Shown here: one piece after another, positions 11,472 to 43,279 of the stretch
Layout: each line of letters opens with the position of its first letter
Position numbering within the stretch: position 1 is the first letter of the stretch
NCBI RefSeq assembly: GCF_026965535.1
Contig: NZ_CP114039.1
Location: 7,254,001 to 7,318,000, forward strand
Reading direction: 5' to 3'
DNA from: Corallococcus sp. NCRR
Lineage (GTDB): Bacteria > Myxococcota > Myxococcia > Myxococcales > Myxococcaceae
Length of the DNA: 64,000 bases
The notes under the pieces: model-generated
Told to the model about the DNA's origin: nothing
Databases searched by the model: none
The model's input: the letters and a program-made list of their open reading frames with translations, nothing else
Made by a program: the position numbers and the translations under genes

Positions 11472-14400
11472 CTACCCGATCTTCTTCTGCAGGTCGTCCA
11501 CCGGCGTCGTGTGCGTGACGATGCGGGACTGGAGCTCCCGCGCCACGTTGGTGATCAGCGGCTTGCGCATCATCGTCATGTGCGTGCCCGGCATGTCCAC
11601 GACCTCCACACCGCCGGTGACGAGCTCCTCCCAGCCGGTGTGCTCACGCGTGTCCGGCCGCTGGCTGGCGCGCAGGAGCACGAGCTTCCCGTCGAGCGGC
11701 TTCGCGTCGTACTGCGTGAAGGCGCGCGAGGTGGACTCGAACACCCGGTACAGGTTGCGCACGCGCTCCACGCCCACGTCGGCGATCTGCGTGTCGCCCT
11801 GGCTGCCCACTTCGTAGAAGTAGTTCACGCGCTCCGCCTGCGTCATCTGGCTGATGCGCTCGCGCAGCTCCATGGGATCGCGTCCCGTGGTGGCCGCCAG
11901 CATCATGGTGAGCTCGGACGTAAGCATGTCCTCCAGGACCTGCTCCGGCGTCTTGTCCGGCACCATGTGCTGCACGGTGTACGCGTCGATGCTCGCCAGC
12001 AGCGCCACCTCTTCGCCCACGGCGCGCAACTGCCGCGCCATCTCGAAGGCGATGATGCCGCCCAGCGACCAGCCCGCCAGGTGGTAGGGCCCGTGCGGCT
12101 GCACCTCGCGCATGGCCGTCAGGTACAGCGCGGCCATCTCCGCCACGGTGCCCAGGGGCTCCTCGCCCTCGGTGCCCCGGGCCTGCAGGCCGTAGCACGG
12201 CTGATCCGCGTCCAGCTCACGCGCCAGGTCCACGTAGCAGAGGACGCCGCCGCCCGCCGGGTGGATGGCGAAGAGCGGAGGCTTCGTGCCCTCCGGCTTC
12301 AGCGCCACCAGCGGCGACCAGGCGCGTGAATCGGCCTCCAGCAGCGCGGCCAACTGCTCCACCGTCGACGCCTGGAACAGCGACGCCAGGGGCAGGTTCT
12401 TGCCGGTGAGCTGCTGGATGCGGCCCATGAGCTGCACCGCCAGCATGGAGTGGCCGCCCAGGTCGAAGAAGTCGTCGCGGATGCCAATGGGCGACATCCC
12501 CAGCGTCTCCTCCCAGACGCGGACCAACTGCAACTGAAGCGGCGTGCGCGCCACCACCAGCGTGGAGCCCTCCGCGCGCGTCGTGTCCGGCGCGGGCAGC
12601 GCGCGGCGGTCCACCTTGCCGTTGGACGTGAGCGGCAGCGACTCCAGCGTCATGAAGGCGGACGGCACCATGTACTCCGGCAGCGTGCGCCGCAGTTGCT
12701 CGCGCAGCTCCGGAACGCCCGCCACGCTCTGGCCCGGCGCGCCCACCAGGTACGCCACCAGGCGCTTGTCGCCCGGCGCGTCCTCACGCACCAGCACCAC
12801 GGCCTCGCGCACGCTCGGGTGCGAGAGCAGGCCCGCCTCGATTTCGCCCAGCTCGATGCGGAAGCCGCGCAGCTTCACCTGGAAGTCCGCACGGCCCAGG
12901 TACTCCAGCGTGCCGTCGGGACGCCACCGCGCCAGGTCGCCGGAGCGGTAGAGCCGCGCGCCGGGCCGCGTGCTGAACGGATCCGGGATGAAGCGCTGCG
13001 CGGTCAGCTCCGGCCGGCCCAGGTAGCCGCGGCTGAGGCCGTCGCCGCCCACGTACATCTCACCCGTGACGCCCGGAGGCACCGGCTGTCCGTGCGCATC
13101 CAGCACGTACACCTGGAGGTCCGGGATCGCGACGCCCACTTCGCTGCCGCGCCCGCCCTCCGCGTCCGCCGCCTTGAGCGCGCGGTAGGTCACGTGGACG
13201 GTCGTCTCGGTGATTCCGTACATGTTGACGAGCACCGGCGCGTTGTCCGCGTGGCGCGCGTACCACGGACGCAGGCTGCCGAACTCCAGCGCCTCGCCGC
13301 CGAACACCACCGTGCGCAGGGACAGGCCCTCGTGGTCGCCCGTGCGCTCCTCGTGCTGGATGAGCTGACGGAACGCGGACGGCGTCTGATTGAGCACCGT
13401 GACGCCCTCGCGCTTGAGCAGCGCATGGAAGTCCGCGGGCGTGCGGCTGACCTCGTACGGCACCACCACCAGCTTGCCGCCGTACAGCAGCGCGCCCCAC
13501 ATCTCCCAGACGGAGAAGTCGAAGGCGTACGAGTGGAACAGCGTCCACACGTCCTTCGCGCCGAAGTCGAACCAGTGCTTCGTGCCGTCGAAGAGGCGCA
13601 CCACCTGTGCGTGCTCAATCTGCGCGCCCTTGGGACGGCCCGTGGAGCCGGACGTGTAGATGACGTAGGCCAGGTGATTGGGCGCCACGCCGCTGTCCGG
13701 CGTCGTCGTGGGCGCGGAGGCCCAGGCGGCGGCATCCGAGTCCAGGCACAGGCGCTTCGCCGCGCCCGACGGCACCACGTCCAGCAGGTGCTGCTGCGTG
13801 AGCACCACCGGCACACGCGCGTCCTCCACCATGAACTCCAGGCGCTCCTGCGGGTACGCCGGATCCATGGGCAGGTACGCGCCGCCGGCCTTGAGGATGG
13901 CCAGCAGGCCCACCATCAGCTCCAGCGAGCGCTCCACCGCGAGGCCCACCAGGACCTCCGGCCCCACGCCCAGCGTGCGCAGGTGGTGCGCCAGCTGGTT
14001 CGCCCGCGTGTCCAGCTCGCGGTACGTGAGGCGCTGTTCGGCGTAGGTGACCGCGATGGCGTCCGGGGTGCGCGCCGCCTGACGCTCGAACAGGGTGTGC
14101 AGGCACGCGTCCACCGGGAAGCGGAAGGACGTGTTCCAGTCCGCCACCACCTCCGCGCGGTCCTCCTGGGTGAGCAGCGGCAGCTGGTGCAGCCGCGCGT
14201 CCGGGTTCGCCCCGATGCCCGCCAGCAACACGCCCAGGTGACGGGCGAGCCGCTCGGCGGTGCTCGCGTCGAACAGGTCGGTGTTGAACTCCAGCCCGCC
14301 CTCGATGCCGTTCGCCGTCTCCGTGAGGCCCAGCGACAGGTCGAACTTCGCGGTGCGGTGCTCCACCTCCACGCCTTCCAGGGCGAGGCCCGTCAGGTTG

Positions 14401-17400
14401 AACGCACCCTCCGGCGCGTTCTGCAGCGTCATGGACACCTGGAACAGCGGCGTGCGGCTGGTGTCGCGCGTGGGCGCCAGCTCCTCCACCAGCTTCTCGA
14501 ACGGCACCTCCTGGTGCGCGTATGCGCCCAGCGTCGTCTCCCGCACGCGGCCCAGCAGCTCGCGGAAGGTCGGATCGCCGTCCAGCTTCGTGCGCAGCAC
14601 CAGCGTGTTGACGAAGAAGCCGATGAGGCCCTCCGTCTCCGCGCGCTGGCGGCCCGCGATGGGCGTGCCCACGCTGATGTCATCCTGTCCGGAGTAGCGC
14701 GACAGCAGCGTCTGCCACGCGGCCAGCAGGACCATGAAGGGCGTGGTGCCCTCCTTCAGCGCCAGGGCCTTGAGCGTCTCCGTCAGCTCGCGGCCGACCT
14801 TCACCGGGACGCTGGAGCCGTTCGACGTCTGCACCGCCGGACGCGGACGGTCCGTGGGCAATTCCAGCGCGGAGGGCGCGCCGGTCAGCTGCTGCTTCCA
14901 GTAGCCGAGCTGCTTCTCCAGCACCTCGCCCTGGAGCCAGCCACGCTGCCAGCCCGCGTAGTCCGCGTACTGCACCGGCAGCTGCGGCAGGGACGGCGTG
15001 CCGCCGTGGGAGAAGGCCTCGTAGGACGCGGCCATCTCGCGCACCAGCACGCCCATGGACCAGCCGTCGGAGACGATGTGGTGCATGACGAGCAGGAGGA
15101 TGTGCTCCTCCTCGTCCAGCTTGAGCAGCTTCACGCGCAAGAGCGGACCGGTGGCCAGCTGGAACGGGTGCACCGCTTCTTCATCCGCGAGCCGGCGCGC
15201 CTCGTCGTGGCGCTCCGGATCCGGGATGTCGGAGAGGTCCACCACCGGGAGCGGCAGCGACACCGCCGGGTAGATGACCTGCGTGGCCTGGCCGTTGTCC
15301 AGGTGGAACGACGTGCGCAGCGATTCGTGGCGGCGCACCAGCTCCGTAAAGCTCTGCTCCAGTGCCGTCACGTCCAGCGAGCCCTTCAGGCGAAGGACCA
15401 TGGGCACATTGTAGGCCGGGCTGGACGCATCCAGCTGGTGCAGGAACCACAGGCGCTGCTGGGCGAAGGACAGCGGCAGGCGGCCTTCGCGAGGCAGCGG
15501 CACGATGGCGGGCGCCTGGGTGCCCGCGCCGGCCTGGAGCGCCTGGTCGATGAGGACGGACAGCTTCTGCACCGTGGGCGCGTTGAAGACGTCCCGCAGC
15601 TGCAGGTCGATCCGGAAGATGCTCCGGACGCGCGACAGCACCTGCGTGGCCAGCAGCGAGTGTCCGCCCAGCTCGAAGAAGTCGTCCGTCGAGCCCACGC
15701 GGTCCACGTTGAGCAGCTCGCTCCACGCACCGGCGAGCAGCTGCTCCGTCGGGGTGCGCGGTGCGATGAACGCCTCGTCCTGCGCGCGCTCGTCGCTGGG
15801 GACGGGCAGCGCCTTGCGGTCCACCTTGCCGTTGGAGGTGACCGGCAGCGCCTCCAGCACCACGAAGGCGGACGGCACCATGTACTCCGGCAGCGTGCGC
15901 TCCAGGTGCTCGCGCAGGCCCTTGCGATCCAGGACCTCCACGTCACCCGCGACGTAGGCGACCAGTCGCTTGTCCCCGGCCACGTCCTCGCGGACGACGA
16001 CCACGGACTCGCGGACCCCGTAGGCGCCCATGAGGGCGGATTCGATCTCCCCCAGCTCGATGCGGTAGCCGCGCACCTTCACCTGGTGGTCGACGCGGCC
16101 CATGTACTCCAGCGTGCCGTCGGCGCGCCAACGGGCCAGGTCGCCGGAGCGGTACAGCCGCGCGCCCGCGTCGGTGCTGAACGCATCCGGCACGAACTTC
16201 TCCGCCGTGAGCTCCGGGCGGCCCAGGTAGCCGCGGCCCACCTGCACGCCGCCGATGTACAGCTCACCCGGCACGCCCACCGGCACGGGCTGAAGCTGCG
16301 CATCCAGCACGTACATCCGCGTGTTGGGCAGCGGCTTGCCGATGCGCACCGCGCCGGAGGCGGAATCCTCCGGGGCCACGACGTGCACCGAGCAGCCCAC
16401 CACCGTCTCCGTGGGGCCGTACTCGTTGATGAGCCGCGTGGCCGGCGCGTGCTTGCGCCAGAACGCCAGCTCCTCCGAGAAGAGCGCCTCGCCGCCGATG
16501 ACGAAGGCGCCCGTGCGCCCCGCCGCCGCGTCCGCGCCCAGCAGGTCGGACAACAGCCGCAGGTGGCTGGGCGTCAGCTTCACCAGGCTGAAGCCCGTGC
16601 CGTCACGCAGCACGTCCGCCAGGCCTTCCACGCCCCGCGTCTCCGACACCATCACCACGCCCCGGCCCGCGACCAGCGGCGCCAGCATGCTGGTGACCGT
16701 GAGGTCGAACGCGAGCGACGAGTGCACCGGCGCGCCCGCGCCCGTGTCCAGCCCGTACGCGGACAAGCACCACGTCAGGTAGTTGGACACGCCGCGGTGT
16801 TCGATGGCCACGCCCTTGGGCTTGCCCGTGGAGCCGGACGTGTAGATGACGTAGGCCAGGTTGCCGGCCGACACCGCCGTCACGGGCGCGTCCTCGCGCT
16901 CGCGGGAGATGCTCCGCTTCCAGTCGCCATCCAGGCTGATGAGCTGCTGCGTGGTGACGGGCAGCTCGTCCGCCAGCGAGTCCTGCGTCAGCACCACCGG
17001 CACCTGCGTGTCCTCCAGCATGAAGGACAGGCGGTCCAGCGGGTACTTCGGGTCGAGCGGCACGTACGCGCCGCCGGCCTTGAGCACGCCCATCACGGCG
17101 ATGACCATCTCCAGCGAGCGCTCCAGGCACAGGGCGACCTTCACCTCCGGGCCCACGCCCAGCCGGCGCAGGTGGTGCGCCAGCTGGTTCGCCTTCGCGT
17201 CCAGCTGCCGGTACGTGAGCGTCTCACCCTCGAAGGTCGCGGCGATGGCGTCCGGGGTGCGGGCCACCTGCTCCTCGAAGCGCTGGTGGATGCAGGCGTC
17301 GCGCGGGAAGTCGGCCCGCGTGTCGTTCCACGTCGTGAGCAGCTGCGTCCGCTCGCCTTCCGTGAGCAGCGGCAGGCGCTGCACGGGCACGTCCGGCTGG

Positions 17401-38400: not shown

Positions 38401-41400
38401 CGCTCCGCCGTCAGCGACGGCTTCGCCAGGTAGCCGCGCGCGAGGCCCGCGCCGGTCAGGTACAGCTCACCCGGAACCCCCTGCGGCACCGGACGCAGCC
38501 ATGCATCCAGCACGTACGCGCGCGAACCCGTCAGCGGACGGCCAATCGTCGGCTCACGCGCGCCGTCCTTCTCCACGCGCGTGTACGTCGAATACGTCGT
38601 GTCTTCCGTCGGGCCGTAGAGGTTGTAGACGCCCTCCACGTTCTTCAGCCCGTAGATCGCCTGCGCCAGCCGGTTCAGCAACGGCTCGCCCGCGAGGTTC
38701 ACCGTACGCACCGACTCCGGCACGCCCCCACTGCGCACCAGTTCCGCCATCGCGGAGGGCACCGTGTTCACCAGCGTCACGCGGCCCGCGTCCTTCAGCG
38801 TCGGCAACGCCAGCGCGTTCTCCGCGACGATGACGGCACCGCCGCAGGTCAGCGGCGCGAAGACCTCGAACACGGACAGGTCGAAGTTCAGCGACGTCGC
38901 CGCCAGCACGCCCGCGAGCTGCCGCGAAGTGAACGCAGCCGTCGCCCAGTGCAGGAAGGCCACCACGCTGCGCTGTTCAATCGCCACGCCCTTCGGACGG
39001 CCCGTGGAGCCCGACGTGTACAGCACGTACGCCAGGTTCCCCACGCCCGTGCCCGTCGTGACAGGCGTCGTCGGCTGGCGCGCAATGACGGCCCAGTCCG
39101 AATCCACGCAGACGGCCTTCGCGGAGTGCTCGGGCAGCACGCCCAGCAGCTTCTGCTGCGTCAGCAGCACCGGCGCCTGCGCGTCCTCCAGCATCCAGCC
39201 CAGGCGCTCACGCGGGTACGCCGGATCCAGCGGCACGTACGCACCACCGGCCTTCAGCACGCCCAGCAGCGCCACCACCATGCTCGCGGAGCGCTCCAGG
39301 CTCACACCCACCAGCGTGTCCGGGCCCACGCCCAGGCCGCGCAGGTGATGCGCCAACTGATTCGCCCGCGCGTCCAGCTGCGCGTACGTCAGCACCTGCC
39401 CGTCGAAGTAGACCGCCGCCGCATCCGGCGTGCGCGCCACCTGCGCCTCGAAGAGCGCCTGCATCGTCCCGTGCACCGGGCCCGGCAGGTCCGTCCCCGA
39501 CGTGTCCTTCAGCAGCGACTGCTTCTCCTGCGCTCCCATCAGCGACAGGTCGGACAGCTTCGCGCCCGGATCCGTGAGCAGCGACTCTAGCAGCACCCGC
39601 AGGTGCTCCATCATCCGGCGCGCCGTCGCCGCGGCGAACAGGTCCGTGTTGTATTCCAGCGTGCCTTCCAGCCCGCCCGCCGTCTCCGTCAGGTAGAGCG
39701 TCAGGTCGAACTTCGCCGTCTTCGACTCCACGTCGTACGGCGACAGCTCCACGCCCGGCAGGCGGAAGTGCGGCAGCACGTCCTGCTGCAACGCGAACAT
39801 CACCTGGAACAACGGCGCGTGGCTCAGGCTGCGCTGCGGCTGGAGCTCTTCCACCAGCTTCTCGAACGGCACGTCCTGGTGCGCGTACGCGCCCAGCGTC
39901 GTCTCCTTCACCTGGGCCAGCAGCGCGCGGAAGGACGGGTTGCCCTCCAGCTTCGTGCGCAGCACCAGCGTGTTGACGAAGAAGCCGATGAGGCCCTCCG
40001 TCTCCGCGCGCGAGCGGCCCGTGATGGGCGAACCCACCGAGATGTCGTCCTGCCCGGAGTAGCGCCCCAGCAGCACCTGGAACGCCGCCAGCAGCAGCAT
40101 GTACGGCGTGACGCCTTCCTGCTTCGCCAGCGCGCCCAGCGCCTTGCTCAGCTCCGCGCCCAGCTTCACGGGCACCGTCGCGCCGCGGTACGTCTGCGAC
40201 GCCGGACGGGCGAAGTCCGTCGGCAGCTCCAGCACCGCCGGAGCCCCCGCCAGCCGCTGCTTCCAGTAGCCGACCTGCTTCTCCAACACGCCGCCCAGCA
40301 GCCACTCCCGCTGCCACTGCGCGAAGTCCGCGTACTGCACGCGCAGCTCCGGCAGCGGAGAACCCCGCCCGCCACGGAACGCGTCGTAGAGCGCGGCGAC
40401 CTCGCGCACGAGCACGCCCATGGACCAACCGTCGGAGACGATGTGGTGCATCGTCACCAGCAGCACGTGCTTCGCTTCACCCAGCTTGAGCAACCGCGCG
40501 CGCATCAGCGGCCCCGCGCCCAGGTCGAACGGGCGCACGGCCTCTTCATCCACGCACCGCCGCGCCTCCGCCTCGCGCGACGCCTCCGGGGAGCCCGTCA
40601 GGTCCACCACCGGCAGCTCGAAGGCCTTCGCCGGGTGGATGATCTGCACCGCCTCGCCGTTCTCCTCGCGGAACGTCGTGCGCAGCGACTCGTGCCGGCG
40701 GACGATCTCCTCCAGGCTCCGGCGCAGCGATTCGGCGTCCAGCGCGCCGTCCAGCCGCACCGCTCCCGGGATGCTGTAGAGCGCGCTGCCCTGCTCCAGC
40801 CGGTCCAGGAACCACAGGCGCTGCTGCGCGAACGACAGGGGCTGCGTGGCCCCTCGCGGCCGGGGCGCGAGCACCGCCGCCTTCGGCTCCTGCTTCGACG
40901 CGGTGATGCGCTTCGCCAGCTCCACCAGGCTCGGCCCCTGAAGCAGCAGCTCCATGGGCAGCGCGATCCCCAGCCCCTTCTCCACCGCGTGCGCCAGCTC
41001 CACCGCGCTCAGCGAATCCAGGCCGTAGCGGGTGATCGGCTCCCGCACGTCCACCGTCTTCGCCGGCACCTTCAGCTGCTCCGCCACGCGCTCCACCAGC
41101 CACGTCAGCGTGGCCCGCGCGGCCTCCGGCACGTCTTCACGCACCGGCGCCGCGACAGGCTCCGAGGCCTCTTCCGTCTCCTCCGCCTCCTCGAACCCCG
41201 GCTCGCGCCACACCAGCACCGTGCGCAGCTCGTCCGCGAGGAACTGCGCCTTGCACGCGTGCCGCTGGATCTTCCCGCTGGAGGTCTTCGGGATGCTGCC
41301 GGGCTCGATCAGCGCCACGGCGTGCACCTGGACCTCGTGGCGCTCGGCGACGCGCTGGCGGATCTCCTTCACCGCCGCCTCCGCCATGTCCACCTGCTTG

Positions 41401-42977
41401 CGCAGGTTGCCCGCCTTGCGCAGGTCGATCTCCTGCACCACCACCAGGCGCTCCTCGCCCGCGACCTCCAGCGACACCGCCGCCACGCTGCCGGCGCGCA
41501 GCGCGGGGTGGCTCTCCTCCACCGTCTGCTCGATGTCCTGCGGGTAGTGGTTGCGGCCCCGGATGATGATCAGGTCCTTGGCCCGGCCGGTGACGTACAG
41601 CTCGCCGTCACGCAGGAAGCCCAGGTCGCCCGTGCGCAGGAACGGGCCTTCGTCCGTGCCCTTCACGCGCGCCTGGAACGCCTCCGCCGTCGCCTCCGGC
41701 TTGCTCCAGTAGCCCAGCGCCACACTCGGGCCGCGCACCCAGATCTCACCCACGCCGCCGGGCGCGCACGCCTCGCGCGTCTGGGGATCCACGATGACCA
41801 CGGGGTGCCCCGGCCGCTCCTCGCCGCTGCCCACCAGGACGCGCGCCTCCGGCTTCGCCGCGTCCACCAGCACCGCCCGGCGCTGCTCCAACGCCGGAGC
41901 ATCCAGCGCGCAGCGCACCGGCGGCGCCGCCACGCTCCCGCCCGACACCAGCAGCGTCGCCTCCGCGAGGCCGTAGCACGGGAAGAAGAACTCCCGCTTG
42001 AAGCCTTGCGGCCCGAAGGCCTGCTCGAAGCGGTCCAGCGTCGCCGGACGGACGGGCTCCGCGCCGGTGAACGCCACCTTCCACGAGCTCAGGTCCAGCG
42101 ACTGCCGCTCCTCCGCCGGGATGCGCCGCACGCACAGGTCGAACGCGAAGTTCGGCCCGCCGCTGATCGTGGCCTTGTAGCGGGTGATGGCCTCCAGCCA
42201 CACGCGCGGGTTCTTGAGCATCGTCAGCGGCGACATCAGCGCCGCGTGGAACGTCGCGTACAGCGGCGTGAGGATGCCGCCGATGAGCCCCATGTCGTGG
42301 TACGGCGGCAGCCAGATGACGGCCGAGCTGCTGGGGCCCAGCTCGAACGCGTCCGTGATCAGCGCCAGGTTGTGCGCCAGGTTGCAGTGGCTCAGCATCA
42401 CGCCCTTGGGCGAACCCGTGGACCCGGACGTGTACTGGAGGAACGCCAGCGTGGACGCGTCCACGTCCGGCGGCGTCCAGTCCGCTTCCCCACCCGCCGG
42501 GATCTCGTCCGTCCCCACCCAGTGCAGCGAGCGCAAGTCCGGCGCCTGCTCGAAGACGAACTCCGTCATGGACAGGATGCCGGACGTGGTGAGCACCACC
42601 GTCGCGCTCGCGTCCTGGATGATCGCGCGCAGGCGCGGCAGCGTGCGCTCCAGCCGCATCGGATCCGGCGGATACGCCGGCACCGCGACGAGCCCCGCGT
42701 AGAGGCACCCGAAGAACCCCGCCACGTACTCCAGGCCGGGCGGATACAGCAGCATCACGCGCTCGCCCGGCTTCGCTACCTTACGCAGCGCCACCGCGAT
42801 CCGCCGCGCCCGCGCGTCCAGCCCCGCGTAGCTCAGCGTTCCGTCTTCCTGACCCGCGTCATCCAGGAAGGTGTACAGCGGCTGTTCGGACCGCGATTGG
42901 GCCCGGCTCCGCAAGATTTCGACGAGGGTGGAATTCGAGGGCGTCAGCTCAGGGGAACGCGGCAAGGAAGAACCCAT
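11472..42977 (-). CDS. Nine-module lipopeptide NRPS (FAAL-ACP-(C-A-T)9-TE)
   Basis: Single protein of about 10,501 residues. An N-terminal fatty acyl-AMP ligase and ACP load a fatty acid, nine C-A-T modules each add an amino acid, and a thioesterase releases the product. All nine condensation domains keep HHxxxDG, all nine A domains have the SGSTG core, and each carrier domain has the Ser of GGHSL or GGDSI. Codes read from the A domains predict Ala, Ala-like, Phe, Val, Asp, Phe, aromatic, Asn, Thr. I see no epimerase, methyltransferase, oxidase or ketosynthase domain. I chose ATG 42977 (MGSSLPRSPEL) as the start because the FAAL fold begins soon after it; ATG 43043 would add 22 unlike residues. 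Neither has a strong ribosome site. The gene is divergent from a CmlA-like hydroxylase and followed after 21 bases by a membrane protein gene. Product and name unknown. Confidence 0.97.
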   Translation of the reverse strand: MGSSLPRSPELTPSNSTLVEILRSRAQSRSEQPLYTFLDDAGQEDGTLSYAGLDARARRIAVALRKVAKPGERVMLLYPPGLEYVAGFFGCLYAGLVAVPAYPPDPMRLERTLPRLRAIIQDASATVVLTTSGILSMTEFVFEQAPDLRSLHWVGTDEIPAGGEADWTPPDVDASTLAFLQYTSGSTGSPKGVMLSHCNLAHNLALITDAFELGPSSSAVIWLPPYHDMGLIGGILTPLYATFHAALMSPLTMLKNPRVWLEAITRYKATISGGPNFAFDLCVRRIPAEERQSLDLSSWKVAFTGAEPVRPATLDRFEQAFGPQGFKREFFFPCYGLAEATLLVSGGSVAAPPVRCALDAPALEQRRAVLVDAAKPEARVLVGSGEERPGHPVVIVDPQTREACAPGGVGEIWVRGPSVALGYWSKPEATAEAFQARVKGTDEGPFLRTGDLGFLRDGELYVTGRAKDLIIIRGRNHYPQDIEQTVEESHPALRAGSVAAVSLEVAGEERLVVVQEIDLRKAGNLRKQVDMAEAAVKEIRQRVAERHEVQVHAVALIEPGSIPKTSSGKIQRHACKAQFLADELRTVLVWREPGFEEAEETEEASEPVAAPVREDVPEAARATLTWLVERVAEQLKVPAKTVDVREPITRYGLDSLSAVELAHAVEKGLGIALPMELLLQGPSLVELAKRITASKQEPKAAVLAPRPRGATQPLSFAQQRLWFLDRLEQGSALYSIPGAVRLDGALDAESLRRSLEEIVRRHESLRTTFREENGEAVQIIHPAKAFELPVVDLTGSPEASREAEARRCVDEEAVRPFDLGAGPLMRARLLKLGEAKHVLLVTMHHIVSDGWSMGVLVREVAALYDAFRGGRGSPLPELRVQYADFAQWQREWLLGGVLEKQVGYWKQRLAGAPAVLELPTDFARPASQTYRGATVPVKLGAELSKALGALAKQEGVTPYMLLLAAFQVLLGRYSGQDDISVGSPITGRSRAETEGLIGFFVNTLVLRTKLEGNPSFRALLAQVKETTLGAYAHQDVPFEKLVEELQPQRSLSHAPLFQVMFALQQDVLPHFRLPGVELSPYDVESKTAKFDLTLYLTETAGGLEGTLEYNTDLFAAATARRMMEHLRVLLESLLTDPGAKLSDLSLMGAQEKQSLLKDTSGTDLPGPVHGTMQALFEAQVARTPDAAAVYFDGQVLTYAQLDARANQLAHHLRGLGVGPDTLVGVSLERSASMVVALLGVLKAGGAYVPLDPAYPRERLGWMLEDAQAPVLLTQQKLLGVLPEHSAKAVCVDSDWAVIARQPTTPVTTGTGVGNLAYVLYTSGSTGRPKGVAIEQRSVVAFLHWATAAFTSRQLAGVLAATSLNFDLSVFEVFAPLTCGGAVIVAENALALPTLKDAGRVTLVNTVPSAMAELVRSGGVPESVRTVNLAGEPLLNRLAQAIYGLKNVEGVYNLYGPTEDTTYSTYTRVEKDGAREPTIGRPLTGSRAYVLDAWLRPVPQGVPGELYLTGAGLARGYLAKPSLTAERFVPNPFSVEPGARMYRTGDRVRWLATGELEYLGRIDFQVKVRGFRIELGEVESALASQPGVRESVVVVREDVPGDKRLVAYVAGASLDVAELRKGLKARLPEYMVPSAFVVLNALPLTPNGKVDRKALPVPEAQAQARYVAPRTATEEQVATLFAQLLRVERVGAEDSFFELGGHSLLAMQLVSRLRTAFSVEVPLRSLFELSTVASLAAFIDGKQQRAEGANLPPLKRVSREGALPLSFAQQRLWFLDRLEQGSALYNVPGAVRLEGALDVEALRLTLQEIVARHESLRTTFREENGEAVQIIHAVGRMDLPVVDLSNVAEAETQRLVNEEAVRPFDLGTGPLFRAKLLKLGEAKHVLLVTMHHIVSDGWSLGVLVREMAALYEAHSQGRAMPMPELAVQYADFAQWQREWLLGGVLEKQVGYWKQQLAGAPALLELQTDFARPAVQTYRGATVPVKLGADLSRALNALAKQEGVTPYQLLLAAFQVLLARYSGQDDISVGSPIAGRTQAETEGLIGFFVNTLVLRTKLSGNPSFQQVLKQVRETTLGAYAHQDVPFEKLVEELQPQRSLSHAPLFQVMFALQQDVLPHLKLSGMELSPYEVESKTAKFDLTLFLTETAGGLEGTLEYNTDLFTALTAQRMTEHLRVLLESVAVRPMAKVFDLSLMSAQEKQTLLMDVSGTDLPAPVSGTMQTLFEAQAVRTPDAPAVYFDGQVLTYAQLEAQANQLAHHLRGMGVGPDTLVGVSLERSARMVVALLGVLKAGGAYVPLDPAYPQDRLGWMLEDAQAPVVLTQQKLLGVLPAHSARNVFLDTDWETISKNPVSRVDARTGLRNLAYVLYTSGSTGRPKGVAIEQRSVIAFLHWATTFFTPQQLSGMLASTSLNFDISVFEVFAPLSVGGSVIVAENALALPTMKDASRVTLVNTVPSAMAELLRSGGVPETVRTVNLAGEPLLNRLAQAVYELKNVDAVYNFYGPTEDTTYSTYLRVEKGATREPTVGRLLTGSRGYVLDARLRPVPQGVPGELYIAGAGLSRGYLAKPALTAERYVPNPFSDEPGARMYRTGDRIRWLPNGELEYLGRFDFQVKVRGFRIELGEVQSVLSTQPGVRESVVVVREDVPGDKRLVAYVAGATLDVAELRKGLKARLPEYMVPSAFVVLNALPLNPNGKVDRKALPVPEAQSSQGQYVAPRTATEEQVATLFAQLLRVERVGAEDSFFELGGHSLLAMQLVSRLRTAFGAEVPLRSLFELSTVASLAAFVDAAASGRDASKAPAITPRPRSATESLSFAQQRLWFLDQLEQGSAFYNVAGGVKLEGTLHVEAMRRTLEEIVRRHESLRTTFREENGQAVQVIHPAKPFELPVVDVSGAQDAEARRLAEEEAARPFDLGTGPLFRAKLLKLGEAKHVLLVTMHHIVSDGWSLGVLVREVAALYEAQVLNQKSPLPELAVQYSDFAQWQREWLLGGVLEKQVGYWKQQLAGAPAVLELPTDFARPAVQTYRGATVPVKLGAELSRTLNALAKQEGVTPYQLLLAAFQVLLSRYSGQDDISVGSPIAGRTQAETEGLIGFFVNTLVLRTKLSGNPSFQQVLKQVRETTLGAYAHQDVPFEKLVEELQPQRSLSHAPLFQVMFALQQDVLPHLKLSGVELSPYEVESKSAKFDLTLSLTEAAGGLEGTLEYNTDLFTAATAQRMMEHLRVLLESVAVRPMAKLSQLELMGPQERHQVLVAWNDTRGDVAGDVTFPTLFEAQVRRAPDSQALVFEDASLTYAQLDARANQLAHHLRTLGVGPEVRVALCVERSLELAVAMLGIQKAGGAFVPLDPSYPRERLSFMLEDSGAPVLVTQSSLSQQLPSDGLRVVRMDVEAAHLQTLPESAPASSANADTLAYVIYTSGSTGRPKGTLLPHRGLNNTARQAAAAKGLGSGQRALQYAASSFDASVWEVFSTLVSGATLVLAPRDRLLPDEPLRTLLKSQRITTVTLTPSVLAQLSTDGLDGVSTIVSAGEALSVEMARKWGQGRTLINAYGPTETTVCATLTHGGVRAERLTIGKPLANVQVYVLDALHHPVPVGVAGELYVAGEGLARGYQGRPDMTAEKFVPHPFSNEPGARLYRTGDRVRWLAEGEIEYLGRIDHQVKVRGFRIELGEIEAVLLRHADVREAAVVVREDVPGDKRLVGYVVPQPGRMVDAASLRKHLKDGVPEYMVPAAFMVLDALPMTPAGKVDRKALPAPTGALTRPDAYVAPRTPTEERVAALFARVLTVERVGAEDSFFELGGHSLMATQLVSRLRGEFQVELPLRALFESPTVAALAARVDEATGAERKFKTPPLKPASREGSLPLSFDQERLWLFEQLTPGTPIYNVPSAARLSGDLDVDVLRRGLEEIVRRHEALRTVFHQDASGAPVQVVLAAKPFALPVVDLSSLPADQAEAEARKHLNAEAARPFDLVQGPLLRAQLLKLSAREHVLCLAMHHIVVDGWAVGVFMHELQALYTAFSRGEASPLPALPVQYADYTLWHRQWLSGDVLEQQISWWKKKLAGAPRIALRTDAPRPAGDRFHGDSRRFHLSPDLTSRIEALGRGEGATLFMVLLAAFDALLHRRTGQDDIVVGTDIANRAREELESLVGFFTNQLVLRTQVSGDLSFRALLDRVRKGTLDAYEHQDLPFGTLVQALKPPREPGGQLFNVKFVLENAPLPPLQLPGLELSLLDAETNGTAKWDLLVVVFPWQGGLTVTVEHNTDVLDRASVERLFAHFESLLRAVVENPEHRIGTLPLLTPDERTTLAAWNDRPRTYPHGQPVSRVFEAQAARAPDAVAVSFEGETLTAGQLNARANQLAHHLRALGVRPGKRVGVSLERSLDLVVAVLGIAKAGGAYVPLDPSFPTERLSMLIEDAGLSALVSVSAIADELPAQWLQVVCLDDDAAALAKRPDTNLDTAPTGEDELYVLYTSGSTGRPKGVSVPHRAVVRLVCGPEWVNLSSKEVFLQLAPLAFDASTFELWGAMLNGAKLAVFPPRAPTLDELGQVITREGVSTLWLTAGLFHQMVDGNLDGLRPVRQLLAGGDVLSPAHVLRVMEQLPGCRVINGYGPTENTTFTACYPVENAQALGISVPIGRPINGTRVHVLNASLEPVPLGAPGELFAGGDGLAHGYLNQPELTAEKFIPDPFSTVPGARLYRTGDQVRFRADGALEFLGRIDQQVKVRGFRIEPGEIETALRGHPSVLDVTVAVQEVAGEKALVAYVVTEEGAEPLGVDTMRSFLHDKLPAYMVPTALMAMDALPLTPNGKVDRRALPVPGSERPQMSTAYAAPRTMEETALCEVWAEVLGVERVGIDDSFYDLGGDSIRSIQLIAKLRERGLDLPMVELLRQPTIRALGNLVHAAPSKAAAQAVPGSEPFSLLSDADRARLPSDVEDAYPVAVLQAGMLFQSELDQASGMYHDATSYHLEMALDEAKMRQLLAELARRHAILRTSFDLTGYEQPLQFVHREAQVPLELHDVRHVPAAEQDALLRKLVEEDRCRPFDWSRAPLLRFAIYRRTEKTLQFSLIFHHAILDGWSLATLLSELFRGYVNLLRGTPAPEAAPLAVTYRQFVALEHQSLTSGEGERFWKSRLSEVDRPAPRAPLPAGQEPVLSMRQVDVPAALQEGLQRVAQAANVPLKTVLLAAHLRVRALMEGQRSVVTGVVSNGRPETADSERMVGLFLNSIPFPVTLEDGTWLDLVRQVSKADGDIWPHRRYPMGRLQQQLGGQRLFETIFNFVHFHVAGGLSQLEGVRLLEETPSTAWMELPLSTLFLQRPDTGALMLVLRTNGTQRDADQTEALAGYYFRALEAMAANPQARHEHARLLPDTERQKLLVEWNATGTQPAGDTCVHERFAVHAARTPDAVAVVCDDGQLTYGELNRRANQLAHWLRARGVGPDARVGLLTERTPDAIVGMMGILKAGGAYVPLDPSHPPERLRTVLEDASASLVVTQASLAANVADASRGHVCLDSDAAMLSREREDDPKRLGDASSLAYVIFTSGSTGRPKGVAIEHRQLNHYVEGVTLRLELPPAASFASVSTLAADLGHTAVFPTLSGGGTLHLISRDRASDPAALGDYFQRHAVDCLKIVPSHLTALLSSPSPERVLPRKRLVLGGEASDPALVARVHALVPGLEVFNHYGPTETTVGVLTWKVERGTQLSATASVPLGRPLPNARMYVLDAALQPVPVGVPGELFIGGAGVARGYLGRPDLTMERFLADPFHPEPGARVYRTGDRVRYLPDGALEFLGRVDFQVKVRGFRIELPEIEAAMSGLPGVAEVVVLAREDVPGDKRLVAYVVAVPGHTLEAGALRQGLKSRLPDYMVPSAFVMLDALPLTSNGKVDRRALPAPEKESEAGRAHVAPRTPTEELIAGLWSKLLGVERVGVKDDFFALGGHSLLATQMISRIRSAFRVELPLRALFEATTVETLSARVDEAVRQGFGLEAPAIVPLSREHTLPLSFAQQRLWFLDQLEPDSAFYNIAAPVMLDGSLEVAPLEQAFTELVRRHEVLRTTFRAEGGNPIQVVHPAAPMPLPLVDLTHLPEAEREAKAQRLADEDAGRPFNLATGPLLRATLVRISDVRHMLLLTVHHIVSDGWSRGVLVREVAALYEAFRQGKPSPLPELPVQYADYSGWQRGWLQGDVLKKQVGYWKQQLTGAPSALELPTDFPRPAVQTYRGETLPFTLPRELSDALRALALKEGVTPYMLLLTAWQVLLARHAGQDDVTVGSPVAGRGRMETEGLIGFFINTLVLRTRLEGDPSFRQVLARVRESVLGAHAHQEVPFEKLVEELQPVRDTSRSPLFQVWFVLHQELAAKLSVPGLTLSAYEAEARTAKFDLALSMLDAADGFVGRLEYNSDLFARTTAERMMARLHVLLSGIVAKPESAVGELPLLSAEEQHQVLVGWNSVRAELPREATIHSLIAAHAEATPDAVALVYEDQSLTYAELDVKANQLAHHLRRRYVGPEVRVALCLERSLDLVVGMLGILKAGGAFIPLDPSYPVERLDYMLSDSGAPVLVTQESLMDSLPTDGRLTIQLDMDVDAIERMPEEAPRSSTSAHNLAYVIYTSGSTGRPKGTLLQHEGLVNTALRAAAAKRVGPGSRVLQYAASSFDASVWEIFSTLAAGATLVLAPRDRLMPDEPLRTLLKEQGITTATLTPSVLAQLSTEGLEGLRSVVSAGEALSVELARKWGAGRLMINAYGPTEATVCATLTEGGVNPERITIGKPWANAQVYVLDASRRPVPVGVAGELYIGGVALARGYQGRPDLTAEKFVPHPFSQEPGARVYRTGDRVRWLATGELEYLGRIDFQVKVRGFRIELGEVESVLLHHTDIREAAVVVREDVPGDKRLVAYVVAQEDTELDVAELRRHLKGEVPEYMVPSAFVVLEALPMTPAGKVDRKALPAPSDARTERSEAEFAAPRTPTEEMLATVWTEVLDVKRVGVRDNFFDLGGHSLLATQVASRIREAFGVELPLRALFEAPTIADLAQRVDQSVRSEQGLQAPPIVPLPREGSLPLGLAQQRLWFLDQMEPDSAFYNIVLPVRLEGELDLGVLERTFTELVRRHESLRTTFHAEGDQPVQRIHPPAPASLNVVDLSGLPDAEREAEAKRLADAETNRGFKLATGPLMRALILRMSQTEHVLLLSLHHIITDGWSMSLLVREIAAIYAAFREDKPSPLPELPVQYADYAGWQRDWLRSDVMGKHVEYWRQQLAGAPSALELPTDFPRPAVMTYSGGGVAVKVPQALSQRIKALCREKAVTPFMFLLAAWQVLLARHAGQDDISVGSPAAGRGHSSTEGIIGFFVNTLVLRAKLEGNPSFRDVLTQVRDTVLSAHVHQEVPFEKLVEELHPVRDTSRSPLFQAMFVLQAEELSGQVSVAGLTLKTFEAEARTAKFDMSLSLADASEGFLGRLAYNSDLYSRVTAERLVQHFVMLLEGIAADMSQRVMALPLMTEDEARQELVVWNDTRVDFPRQACIQSFIEAHARFTPDAVALVYEDTSLTFAQLDAKANQLAHHLRTLGVAPEVRVALCLDRSLDLVVGMLGVLKAGGAFVPLDPAYPIDRLDYMLEDSGATVLVTRGEPMPGLHAEDRVGLHLDDVRDVLQALPTTAPSVSMTSANLAYVIYTSGSTGRPKGTLLQHQGLVNTALQAGRAHRYAPGSRVLQYAASSFDASVCEVFGTLVAGATLVLAPRDRLLPDEPLRTLLQEQRITAVTLTPSVLAQLGTEGLEGLRTVISAGEALSVELARKWGEGRLMINAYGPTEATVCATLTENGANPERLTIGKPWANVQVYVLDDALRPQPTGVPGELYVAGVGLARGYQGRPDLTAERFIPNPFSQEPGARLYRTGDRVRWTSSAELEYLGRIDSQVKVRGFRIELGEVESVLLHHAEVREAAVVVREDAPGDKRLVAYVVPRAAGTLDAVELRRHLKTEVPEYMVPSAFVVLEALPLTPAGKIDRKALPAPTGEVARTRTFVAARTPTEELLAALFAQLLGVERVGVEDHFFEMGGHSLMATRLASRIREAFDVELPLRTLFEAPTVTDLARRVDTLVAQGRGVKAPPLVALPRAERMPLSFAQQRLWFLNQLEPDSAFYNLPLPVRLEGALDVSALERAFTELVRRHESLRTTFPMRDGQPAQVVHPAATVSLPVVDLSAQPEDVREAEAQRRANEEAQRPFHLANGPLLRVKLLKLEAQRHVLLATMHHIVSDGWSMGVLVREMAALYEAFASGRAPSLPELPVQYADYAGWQRGWLQGDVLAQQMAYWKQQLSGAPAALELPTDRPRPAVQTYRGASVNLRVGKPVTDTLKALALKEGATPFMVLLAAWQVLLARYSGQDDVSVGTPIAGRGRTETEGLIGFFVNTLVLRTKLEGNPSFRALLAQVKETTLGAYAHQEVPFEKLVEELAPTRDTSRTPLFQVLLSFQNAPVPELEVKGLTLRAVPLEHATAQFDLNMTLSEVDGELRGAMEYNSDLFDAGTATRMLEHLRVLLEGVASQPDVPVQRLPLLTEGERTQLLTTWNDTRADFPRDACIHQRFEEQVARTPDAIAATFEGETLTYRQLDAKANQLAHHLRRLGVGPEVKVALCLERSLEMVIAVMGVLKAGGAYVPLDPKYPLDRLSFMLEDTQVPVVLTQDSLADELPVTTQQLISLDGDWKRSISREREDAPVTAVSAGNLAYVIYTSGSTGKPKGVAIEHRGVSNYLTWCLSAYGLDTGAGAPVHSSLAFDLTVTSMLAPLVAGRGVVMVSETRGVEGLADVLRDGTGFSLVKLTPSHLRLLSDLLGADAAAGRTGAFVIGGEALFSEELAFWRKHAPATRLINEYGPTETVVGCSVHVVAPEDSASGAVRIGKPLPNTRMYVLDAQLQPVPVGVPGELYIGGVQVGRGYLGRPELTAEKFVPDAFSTDAGARLYRSGDLARWRADGTLEYMGRVDHQVKVRGYRIELGEIESALMGAYGVRESVVVVREDVAGDKRLVAYVAGDVEVLDRKGLREHLERTLPEYMVPSAFVVLEALPVTSNGKVDRKALPVPSDERAQDEAFIAPRTPTEQLLAGAWSELLNVDRVGSTDDFFELGGHSLLATQVLSRVRSIFRIDLQLRDVFNAPTVQKLSVLIDQALQAGAGTQAPAIVPLPREGRLPLSFAQQRLWFLHQLDASSPAYNVPMVLRLKGSLDVTALEQSFTELVRRHESLRTSFHLDNGQATQVIYPAVSLPLPVVDLSDIPDPERHDEARRLADEEAVHPFQLATGPLLRVKLLKLDEEEHILLLVMHHIVSDGWSMGVLVREMAASYEAFSHGGTPSLPQLPVQYADYAGWQRGWLQGEVLEKQLGYWKQQLTGAPSALELPTDRPRPAVQTSNGSSVPVKVGRELTETLKALALKEGTTPFMVLLAAWQTLLSRYSGQDDISVGTPIAGRQRAETEGLIGFFVNTLVLRTKLDGDPTFRELLGRVRETTLGAYAHQEVPFEKLVEELAPTRDTSRTPLFQVSMTLQNAPEGAFNLTGLALEGVEVEHRTAKFDLSLGLTETANGIEGGLEFNTDLFDASTAERLARHLGVLLAGIGANPDARLHQLPLLTQEDRAEVVADWNTSFRFPVDACLHTLFERQAARTPDAIAVTYAEQRLTYRELDTRANQLAHHLRTLGVGPEVLVGLAVERSLELMVGLLAILKAGGAYLPMDPAYPQERLEFMVEDARVPVVLTQQHLLDVVPSGAAKRLCLDSDAAAWASAPTTTPDSGVAPNHLAYVIYTSGSTGRPKGAQIEHAQVVRLFDGTKHWFDFGAKDVWTLFHSYAFDFSVWEMWGALLYGGKLVVVPYEVSRTPADFHALLKREGVTVLNQTPSAFRQLIQHEERTGDHEGLSLRTVVFGGEALEFGSLRPWYARHADNAPVLVNMYGITETTVHVTYRALKAADAEGGRGSEVGVAIPDLQVYVLDAHGQPVPPGVTGEMYVGGDGLSRGYLGRPELTAQRFIPDPFSTRPGARLYRSGDLARWRPDGTLEYLGRADFQVKLRGFRIELGEIEAGLLSHPSVREAVVLVREDAPGDKRLVAYLVGAPGQSVAGVPELREQLRRTLPEYMVPSAFMTLESLPLTSNGKVDRRALPAPDTTRAEGSTLVVARTPLQLQLVRVWEETLGMSPIGIRDDFFDLGGHSMLAVQLMGRIQQLTGKNLPLASLFQASTVEQLAALLEADSRAWSPLVALKPEGTKPPLFAIHPAGGGVLCYVDLARELDADQPCYGLQARGTEGEEPLGTVAEMAALYLTAMREVQPHGPYHLAGWSLGGIIAFEMARQLRAVGEEVALLASIDAYTVQHMVPDKTPEQVLEDMLTSELTMMLAATTGRDPMELRERISQMTQAERVNYFYEVGSQGDTQIADVGVERVRNLYRVFESTSRAFTQYDAKPLDGKLVLLRASQRPDTREHTGWEELVTGGVEVVDMPGTHMTMMRKPLITNVARELQSRIVTHTTPVDDLQKKIG
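11490..12300 (-). other. NRPS C-terminal thioesterase domain
   Basis: Type I thioesterase of the alpha/beta-hydrolase fold with the oxyanion-region motif FAIHPAGGG and nucleophile Ser near residue 10304 in AGWSLGG; the catalytic His is probably in the C-terminal PGTHMTMM. It releases the chain by hydrolysis or cyclisation; which one cannot be read from sequence. Confidence 0.9.
12340..15485 (-). other. NRPS module 9 (C-A-T), predicted Thr
   Basis: C domain with HHIVSDG. The A domain has AFDFSVWEMW, LNQTPS, VVFGGEA and NMYGITETTVH, giving DFWNVGMVHK, a Thr-type code. T domain LGGHSML near 12450. It is the last extension module before the thioesterase. Confidence 0.86.
15545..18675 (-). other. 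NRPS module 8 (C-A-T), predicted Asn
   Basis: C domain with HHIVSDG. The A domain has AFDLTVTSML, VKLTPS, FVIGGEA and NEYGPTETVVG, giving DLTKVGEVGK, an Asn-type code (Glu at position 322 separates it from Asp in module 5). T domain LGGHSLL near 15655. Confidence 0.85.
18725..21845 (-). other. NRPS module 7 (C-A-T), predicted aromatic, unusual code
   Basis: C domain with HHIITDG. The A domain has SFDASVCEVF, TLTPS, VISAGEA and NAYGPTEATVC, giving DACTIAAVCK. Position 239 is Cys where modules 3 and 6 have Trp, which alters the pocket floor. An aromatic or large hydrophobic residue is likely, but I know no exact match. T domain MGGHSLM near 18850. Confidence 0.7.
21895..25010 (-). other. NRPS module 6 (C-A-T), predicted Phe
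   Basis: C domain with HHIVSDG. The A domain has SFDASVWEIF, TLTPS, VVSAGEA and NAYGPTEATVC, giving DAWTVAAVCK, identical to module 3 and of Phe type. T domain LGGHSLL near 22015. The A domain is very similar to that of module 7. Confidence 0.82.
25060..28210 (-). other. NRPS module 5 (divergent C-A-T), predicted Asp
   Basis: The C domain is unlike the other eight. It begins VEDAYPVAVLQAGMLFQ instead of LSFAQQRLWF and has HHAILDG, so it is catalytically complete but of another sub-family. The A domain has LAADLGHTAVF, LKIVPS, LVLGGEA and NHYGPTETTVG, giving DLTKVGHVGK, close to known Asp codes; His at position 322 favours Asp over Asn. T domain ALGGHSLL near 25185. Confidence 0.82.
28280..31415 (-). 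other. NRPS module 4 (C-A-T), predicted Val
   Basis: C domain with HHIVVDG. The A domain has AFDASTFELW, LWLTAG, LLAGGD and NGYGPTENTTF, giving DAFWLGGTFK, which matches Val codes. The carrier core is LGGDSIRSIQ, the form usually found before epimerase or special condensation domains, not the GGHSL form of the other eight modules. An ordinary A-containing module 5 follows directly, with no epimerase. Confidence 0.85.
31470..34550 (-). other. NRPS module 3 (C-A-T), predicted Phe
   Basis: C domain with HHIVSDG. The A domain has SFDASVWEVF, TLTPS, IVSAGEA and NAYGPTETTVC, giving DAWTVAAVCK, a Phe-type code. The A domain belongs to a different sub-family from modules 1-2, although the C domain is almost the same as theirs, so the C-A junction looks like a recombination point. 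T domain LGGHSLM near 31580. Confidence 0.82.
33460..33879. repeat. Near-identical intragenic direct repeat, copy in module 3 C domain
   Basis: About 420 bases encoding the second half of the module 3 condensation domain repeat, with only scattered single-base differences, at 36601-37020 in module 2, an offset of about 3,141 bases (one module). A somewhat more diverged third copy lies near 39740-40160 in module 1. Confidence 0.85.
34630..37695 (-). other. NRPS module 2 (C-A-T), predicted Ala-like
   Basis: C domain with HHIVSDG. The A domain code read as for module 1 is DIFNNAFTYK, differing from the Ala code of module 1 at two positions (236 and 322), so a small residue such as Ala is likely but less certain. 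T domain LGGHSLL near 34730. The second half of the C domain is nearly identical in DNA to that of module 3. Confidence 0.75.
36601..37020. repeat. Near-identical intragenic direct repeat, copy in module 2 C domain
   Basis: Partner of the copy at 33460-33879. By eye well over 90 percent of bases are the same, including synonymous sites, which points to recent duplication or gene conversion. Confidence 0.85.
37775..40840 (-). other. NRPS module 1 (C-A-T), predicted Ala
   Basis: C domain from LSFAQQRLWFLDRL with HHIVSDG; it should take the fatty acyl group from the loading ACP. The A domain has NFDLSVFEVF, VNTVPS, VNLAGEP and NLYGPTEDTTY, giving the ten-residue code DLFNNALTYK, a known Ala code as I remember it. 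T domain LGGHSLL near 37870. Sequence is close to modules 2 and 3 in the C domain. Confidence 0.85.
40905..42935 (-). other. NRPS loading module: fatty acyl-AMP ligase and ACP
   Basis: Residues about 15-600 form a FAAL, recognised by FLQYTSGSTGSPKG, the FAAL-type motif YGLAEATLLVSGG and KDLIIIRGRNHYPQD. FAALs activate a free fatty acid as acyl-AMP and pass it to a carrier protein rather than to CoA. The carrier follows at about 615-690, with its phosphopantetheine Ser near 654 in GLDSLSAVEL. Chain length and branching of the acyl group cannot be read. Confidence 0.92.
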
Positions 42978-43279
42978 GTGGAAGGCCGGAGAACACCGCA
43001 AGAGCTTCAGTGGGCCGACTGCCCGTGCGACACACACCCACATGGTGCGTGGCGCGGGCGCCCTTGCAATGAGTCCGGGGGAGCAGAACTGGATACGAGA
43101 ATACCACTAGGACTGGGTTCTACTGAACTTGAACAATTTGCTCGAATCGCTCACATTCGCTTGTCAGCCCTGCTTCCTGGTCTTCAGCTCTCACCCCGCC
43201 CTCTCTTGACTCCGCGAGTTCCCCTATCGGAACCGCCGTGAATCGAGTCCGGGCGCGGGGGTCTTCTCGATCGCCCACC
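42978..43279. promoter_or_regulatory. Divergent promoter region between NRPS and CmlA-like gene
   Basis: This 302-base gap holds no gene. Its centre (about 43085-43160) is much richer in A and T than the surroundings. It contains a short inverted repeat GTTC-TACT-GAAC (43117-43128) overlapping a direct repeat GAAC-TT-GAAC (43125-43134). Both divergent genes are probably controlled from here. Confidence 0.6.
43129..43157 (+). promoter_or_regulatory. Possible sigma70-type promoter for the CmlA-like gene
   Basis: A -35-like TTGAAC (43129-43134) and a -10-like CACATT (43152-43157) are separated by 17 bases. Match to consensus is only partial (four and three of six), so this is a weak call. It would leave a leader of about 115 bases. 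Confidence 0.3.

Follow-up and report, generated by a model that had tools for sequence, protein, structure and literature searches.

The locus analyzed here raises the question of which product is made by a nine-module NRPS encoded by a single gene of Corallococcus sp. NCRR, and in particular whether the residue selected by the fourth module enters the peptide as plain Val. The window, i.e., the whole stretch of 64,000 nucleotides that was analyzed, corresponds to positions 7,254,001-7,318,000 of the genome, which is a single contig of 9.79 Mb.

The Synthetase Gene

A Pfam search run on ten consecutive pieces of the synthetase identified an AMP-binding domain, a DIP2-like C-terminal domain and a PP-binding domain, followed by nine repeats of Condensation, AMP-binding, AMP-binding_C and PP-binding and a final Thioesterase, with every domain exceeding its cut-off (Table 1). 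The longest frame (11472..43043, minus strand) encodes 10,523 aa with no internal stops and has a GC3 of 0.95. Together, the Pfam domains and the uninterrupted frame bear out the claim of an earlier note on this DNA that a FAAL, an ACP, nine C-A-T modules and a thioesterase reside in one gene, and these are the parts that define a FAAL-initiated lipopeptide NRPS. The gene end at 42977, previously taken as the start, is Met23 of the longest frame. It is the likelier start, since the sequence MGSSL was found at that place in five of the six orthologous frames compared, the one without it being that of G020.

The first domain had 23 matches among solved structures, including the FAALs FadD32, FadD23, and FadD28, while the labels of its two best kinds of solved entry say no more than "Polyketide synthase" and "Saframycin Mx1 synthetase B." The C domain of module 1 (C1) was LCL-like, with Txo2, Txo1, and TycC as best solved relatives at 337-403 bits, compared to 97 bits for AmbE and 89 bits for McyA. 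The whole gene was kept in five further genomes of the genus at 86.6-97.4% identity (95.7% in G020), which argues that its architecture did not arise by chance.

Two long open frames were found antisense to the synthetase, at 12450-27299 (plus strand, 4949 aa) and 29535-39590 (plus strand, 3351 aa). Their GC content was 0.95-0.96 at the first codon position and 0.73 at the third, a pattern that suggests shadow frames opposite a high-GC gene and not true genes.

Table 1. Features of the synthetase locus, with positions in the window and residues as predicted from the specificity codes.
Feature	Position	Strand	Basis or code
Synthetase, FAAL-ACP-(C-A-T)9-TE, single gene	11472..42977	-	10,501 aa from likely start Met
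FAAL domain	41184..42977 (inner border approximate)	-	Pfam, solved-structure matches
ACP behind FAAL	40890..41126	-	Pfam
Module 1	37734..40889	-	DLFNNALTYK (Ala)
Module 2	34599..37733	-	DIFNNAFTYK (Ala)
Module 3	31440..34598	-	DAWTVAAVCK (Phe)
Module 4	28269..31439	-	DAFWLGGTFK (Val)
T4 motif LGGDSI	28395-28412	-
Module 5	25071..28268	-	DLTKVGHVGK (Asp, or Asn)
C5, condensation domain of dehydrating (CmodAA) type	26868..28193	-	Clade, motif, solved-structure matches
C5 motif HHAILDG	27765-27785	-
C5 motif KTVLLAAH	27432-27455	-
C5 motif HRRYP	27219-27233	-
Module 6	21894..25070	-	DAWTVAAVCK (Phe); Asn-type code in G017
Module 7	18714..21893	-	DACTIAAVCK (aromatic, perhaps Tyr)
Module 8	15549..18713	-	DLTKVGEVGK (Asn)
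Module 9	12339..15548	-	DFWNVGMVHK (Thr)
Thioesterase with GWSLG motif	11529..12278	-	Pfam, motif
CmlA/FrsH-type non-heme diiron beta-hydroxylase, divergent from synthetase	43280..44881	+	Pfam, solved matches, motif
CAAX/Rce1-type protease gene, within inserted segment	44950..45975	+	Pfam, neighborhood comparison

Specificity Codes and Predicted Residues

To read the codes, the nine A domains were aligned together, and each anchor occupied a single column. All eight codes listed in the earlier note were recovered unchanged, and the ninth, which it had left unlisted, was DACTIAAVCK at module 7. The amino acid names given to the codes follow common usage and the earlier reading, DLTKVGHVGK alone coming from a paper. 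Residue 7 is a guess among the aromatics with Tyr favored; this choice draws on a Tyr code, DASTVAAVCK, and on work on GrsA Trp239. Position 5 had been given as Asp and the code fits this, but DLTKVGHVGK is described as serving both Asp and Asn, mostly Asp (PMC12283262). Modules 1-2 and modules 2-3 shared 85% DNA identity over 4.9 kb, and A1 and A2 were 84% identical.

In C. carmarthensis CA043D (G017) the region from T5 to C8 was only 47-86% identical to that of the window, compared to 86-98.5% for the other domains, and module 6 is Asn-type where the window has Phe. A6 of this strain (L107-L109) was 99.8% identical to its own A8. The DNA identity between its modules 6 and 8, taken in 50-codon steps, was 91-100% across the A domain and 81-96% in C6. 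Module 6 of G017 looks like an internal copy, and the DNA-identical part is possibly an artefact of the draft assembly. The difference of one module (Phe or Asn) between species provides a natural example of module exchange.

By Sequence, C5 Is of the Dehydrating Type

C5 scored 217 bits to the general Condensation model, while its eight counterparts in the synthetase scored 360-423 bits. Its closest solved relatives were a McyA chain (345 bits) and AmbE (218 bits), with the next at 153 bits. For the second C domain of AmbE, dehydration of the substrate is reported to be shown by experiment (PMC10880069). The published helix motif of CmodAA domains is [K/R]SVLLAAH (PMC11342130), and a KTVLLAAH-type helix was found in C5 and in none of the other eight C domains. 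The K/R...H pair of this helix was present in all 63 tips of the C5 clade (62 distinct domains, with P. fallax entered twice) and in none of 71 other C/E domains, whether LCL (49), after-E (12), or E (10). An RR at motif C6 was found in 61 of the 63 clade tips compared to 1 of the 71 others. C5 carries both the Arg at the start of C6 (in HRRYP, placed there by eye) and the HHxxxDG (as HHAILDG) expected of a CmodAA domain. C5 was 95-99% identical among the six genomes.

All C5-like domains formed one clade with a support of 1.0, a group of its own in the D-clade whose sister was that of the after-E domains, i.e., C domains preceded by an E domain; the tree was built without MIBiG reference sequences and without dual E/C references, and support for its inner branching is low (0.099 for the Thr-type node). 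The Val-type domains formed one clade (0.999) nested in the Thr, Ser and Ile types, again with weak inner nodes.

A search with C5 at E ≤ 1e-70, in which up to 17 candidates were scored for each genome, gave at least 68 domains in at least 44 of the 96 genomes of the family, i.e., C5 and its orthologues (6) and 62 others. Sixty of the latter were taken with their upstream module, those left out being the domains of G024, with an upstream Ser code, and G063. An upstream code was obtained for 56 of the 60 (26 Val, 24 Thr, 4 Ser, and 2 Ile-like), the other four being cut at contig ends. With the orthologues included, the residue upstream of the 62 distinct decoded domains was Val in 32, Thr in 24, Ser in 4 and Ile-like in 2, and no other residue was found; the clade members were selected for their similarity to C5, and many of the rows come from close relatives and do not represent independent events. 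At the same loci, 0 of 65 decoded LCL domains followed a Val, Thr, Ser or Ile-like code. The upstream T motif was GGDS in 63 of 63 C5-like rows (P. fallax twice), compared to GGHS in 65 of 65 LCL rows. In the synthetase itself T4 has LGGDSI, whereas the other eight T domains have GGHS. However, 11 of 13 DCL-class domains also follow such codes (Ser 6, Ile-like 4, and Thr 1) and 13 of 13 follow GGDS, so the upstream residue and the carrier motif separate C5 from LCL domains and not from DCL domains.

This has a bearing on whether C5 might instead be a DCL or dual E/C domain with D-Val as residue 4, a reading that would fit the GGDS shared with all 13 DCL-class domains and the sister position of the C5-like domains to the after-E clade. 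Between T4 and C5, however, no further stretch of condensation type was recognized by Pfam, and C5 neither follows an E domain nor groups with the after-E domains; its diagnostic residues were found in 0 of the 12 after-E domains (the tree holding no dual E/C reference). The carrier before dual E/C domains is described as LGGHSI (PMC10212144), and the LGGDSI of T4 therefore speaks against the dual type. We consider the D-Val reading very unlikely; as judged from sequence, C5 is set apart from DCL domains by its clade and by the K/R...H motif.

A CmlA-Type Hydroxylase Gene Adjoins the Synthetase

Thr and Ser bring their own beta-hydroxyl group while Val does not, and a Val module in front of a dehydrating domain would therefore need a hydroxylase. 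A gene of this kind starts 302 bp from the start of the synthetase. Its product matched PF18456 (CmlA_N) with 295 bits and Lactamase_B_2 with 44 bits, and its best solved matches were 8a90 (306 bits), which we take to be FrsH, and CmlA 4jo0 (282 bits). CmlA itself is said to act on p-aminophenylalanine. The HxHxDH motif reads HSHPDH, and H304, H306, D308, H309, and E376 were invariant in 42 sequences, some of which are the same gene twice; the residues beyond HxHxDH are presumably metal ligands as well. Neither this gene nor the C5 subtype nor LGGDSI of T4 had been part of the earlier reading.

The hydroxylase gene adjoins the synthetase in six of the six genomes found to hold the latter, and was 92.5-97.7% identical in the other five. 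Across the family, a CmlA gene lay within 30 kb on the contig for 10 of 34 decoded Val/Ile-type domains compared to 1 of 28 Thr/Ser-type domains (p 0.008 per domain), six of the ten being one orthologous set. For the remaining 24 of the 34 no CmlA was found within 30 kb on their contig. Genomes carrying Thr/Ser-type C5-like domains hold CmlA genes as well, so that pairing the two at the level of whole genomes would not tell the types apart. In a CmlA tree, the protein of the window formed its own clade and was not grouped with those near other Val- or Ile-type lines, and we rejected this tree as support for the Val clade.

It may be asked whether the enzyme acts on a residue other than Val (Phe, residue 7, Asp, or Asn) that is kept as the beta-hydroxy form, with C5 condensing Val unchanged or otherwise modified. 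CmlA-type genes also adjoin FAAL synthetases that have no C5-like domain in the part seen, and the code DACTIAAVCK was found again in G007 beside a CmlA gene. Beta-hydroxylated Asp, Phe, and Ile are described as retained in the chitinopeptins, for which CmlA-like functions are proposed (PMC9248904). But such a reading would leave C5, with its dehydrating marks, without a beta-hydroxylated substrate. G017 has an Asn-type module 6 and an A7 that is only 79-81% identical, yet it has kept the CmlA gene at 92.5%. Nor was there a clear tie to Cys239 of A7: 19 of 83 domains with Cys239 (FDASVCE) had a CmlA gene within 40 kb, compared to 7 of 65 with Ala239, which was not decisive, and we rejected Cys239 as a mark of the hydroxylated residue. 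We regard hydroxylation of another residue as improbable.

Two further observations concern genes of this type. In several genomes of the genus, the layout of a FAAL synthetase and a divergently oriented CmlA-type gene recurs with other modules (Gly, Ser, E ... Asp; L141-L152). The source genome has a second CmlA-type gene (G000:C1:7713955, L155) with near neighbors in the tree from several relatives; no NRPS domain was found near it in the 20 kb taken.

A Proposed Route to Dehydrovaline

We propose, with a probability of roughly 0.7, that the product is acyl-Ala-Ala-Phe-dehydroVal-Asp-Phe-(aromatic, perhaps Tyr)-Asn-Thr. The FAAL would load a fatty acid onto the ACP and C1 would join the acyl group to Ala1. 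The nine modules would add Ala, Ala, Phe, Val, Asp, Phe, an aromatic residue (Tyr favored), Asn, and Thr. The CmlA-type enzyme would hydroxylate the beta carbon of Val on T4 before condensation, and C5 would dehydrate beta-OH-Val to alpha,beta-dehydrovaline and then condense it with residue 5. The thioesterase would free the chain, probably as a linear acid.

The domain order, the codes, the clade and diagnostic residues of C5 and the hydroxylase with its HxHxDH motif are read from the sequence, and C5 and the hydroxylase are both kept in six genomes. We infer Val as the substrate of the hydroxylase from the type of C5 and the code of module 4; the dehydration, residue 7, the mode of release and the function of the product are likewise parts of the model. 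The product had been predicted as acyl-Ala-Ala-Phe-Val-Asp-Phe-aromatic-Asn-Thr. The residue order by code, the lipopeptide nature, and the number of modules stood, and the exception is Val4, which from the type of C5 is read as dehydrovaline. A plain acyl nonapeptide as first written, the extra functions having been lost, would agree with eight codes that read as standard amino acids and a ninth that is near the Phe code. The conservation of C5 and of the hydroxylase among the six genomes, at the identities given above, speaks against such a loss, and of the readings considered this is the one to which we give the smallest chance. No report of the predicted dehydrovaline peptide was found in the literature searched, MIBiG and most subscription papers being outside that search.

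A wider reading may be drawn, which we find unlikely as a whole. Here, a Val-hydroxylating CmlA-type enzyme, a Val-adapted dehydrating C domain and ring closure by the thioesterase via a hydroxylated fatty acid would give a cyclic dehydrovaline lipopeptide. The Val-type clade would have arisen from Thr/Ser dehydrating domains, and its hydroxylase partners would belong to different families (CmlA here, TauD-type and Asp/Asn-hydroxylase near two others). The cryopeptin paper describes dehydrovaline as so far limited to linear peptides (PMC12181424).

Comparison With Known Systems

The locus is of a kind already known, both as a FAAL lipopeptide NRPS and in the use of a hydroxylase with a dehydrating C domain for dehydrovaline. 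For NRPS-made dehydrovaline, hydroxylation followed by dehydration has been called likely (PMC10880069), and this logic is proposed in part for myxovalargin (PMC9853869, PMC10880069). For the cryopeptins, hydroxylation of Val by a CmlA-like enzyme and dehydration by a CmodAA domain are proposed and the dehydrovalines were seen by NMR, the role of CrpA being given as a hypothesis (PMC12181424).

A Val code before a CmodAA domain together with a CmlA-like gene, the combination of a dehydrovaline lipopeptide of the cryopeptin kind, was found in the window. As described, crpABC of Pedobacter shares with the window a CmlA/FrsH-like protein, C domains for modified amino acids, a lipid tail, and dehydrovaline (predicted here), but differs in having two NRPS genes, a starter C domain, and a Phe-Dhv-Arg-Dhv-Leu pentapeptide, and in belonging to Bacteroidota (PMC12181424). 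The myxovalargin cluster mxv is likewise a myxobacterial NRPS with dehydrovaline (predicted here), but by its description has five NRPS genes, E domains, and agmatine release without a type I TE (PMC9853869). MxvH is the enzyme proposed in this route (PMC9853869), and the C domains after the dehydro-residues of myxovalargin were placed in the dehydrating cluster (PMC10880069). The corallorazine cluster crz of C. coralloides B035 also has a dehydrating C domain in Corallococcus, but is described with two modules, Ser converted to Dha without a hydroxylase, and reductive release (PMC11342130). FrsH of the FR900359 cluster and CmlA are, like the predicted hydroxylase, diiron beta-hydroxylases acting on a carrier-bound amino acid, but the substrate of FrsH is Leu and the hydroxyl is kept (PMC7794379).

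The Cluster Occupies a Variable Insertion Site

Comparison of the same site in relatives (L312-L319) identified the insertion as the hydroxylase gene, the CAAX-type protease gene and the synthetase gene, flanked by a phosphofructokinase gene and a conserved hypothetical gene and lying between 11450 and 46691 in the window. The window's cluster was found at this site in six genomes, the site was empty in four (G016, G019, G025, and G026) and two (G024 and G027) held a cluster of corallorazine layout; these counts leave out G021, G022, G023, and G030. At the empty site the phosphofructokinase gene, the homologue of the 10749-11450 gene, the trypsin-like gene and the FHA gene are neighbors, with 0.75-1.4 kb between the matches of the first two, and no match to a CmlA-type or CAAX-type gene was found there in the four relatives. 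The layout in G024 and G027 is C, Ser A, T, C5-like C, Gly A, and was named from the published description and not by sequence comparison. At this single insertion site, one synthetase protein and one oxidase account for the whole predicted dehydrovaline route.

The trypsin-like, FHA and 10749-11450 genes were rejected as cluster members as they are present at the empty site in four of four relatives. A P450 gene (6118-7350) was rejected as a tailoring gene, since it is located outside the insertion and in two of the six cluster genomes no match to it was found between the corresponding flanking genes. All 16 genomes of the genus had the trypsin-like gene, which in G021 lies on one contig with a Ser-type C5-like domain. 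An orthologue of the phosphofructokinase gene (89% or more) was found in 14 of the 16, the other two showing a 50-52% paralogue only.

Other Val-Type Lines in the Family

The Thr/Ser relatives of C5 represent natural controls for the Val type. Three other Val-type lines were inspected by means of a GC-filtered gene list, with ten proteins scanned. No hydroxylase candidate was found near the line of G077 (one protein scanned). The cluster of G071 had a TauD-type gene inside it.

The source genome had 105 condensation-domain matches, and its NRPS open frames of 7,670-10,694 aa number eight, that of the window included. It also encodes a second FAAL synthetase in which a C5-like domain follows a Val code, at about G000:C1 6598000-6636000 (L269, L306, and L307). 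Its neighborhood contains a penicillin-amidase gene and an Asp/Asn beta-hydroxylase gene, the latter about 24 kb from the Val-type domain, and from its sequence this locus is a second candidate for dehydrovaline formation.
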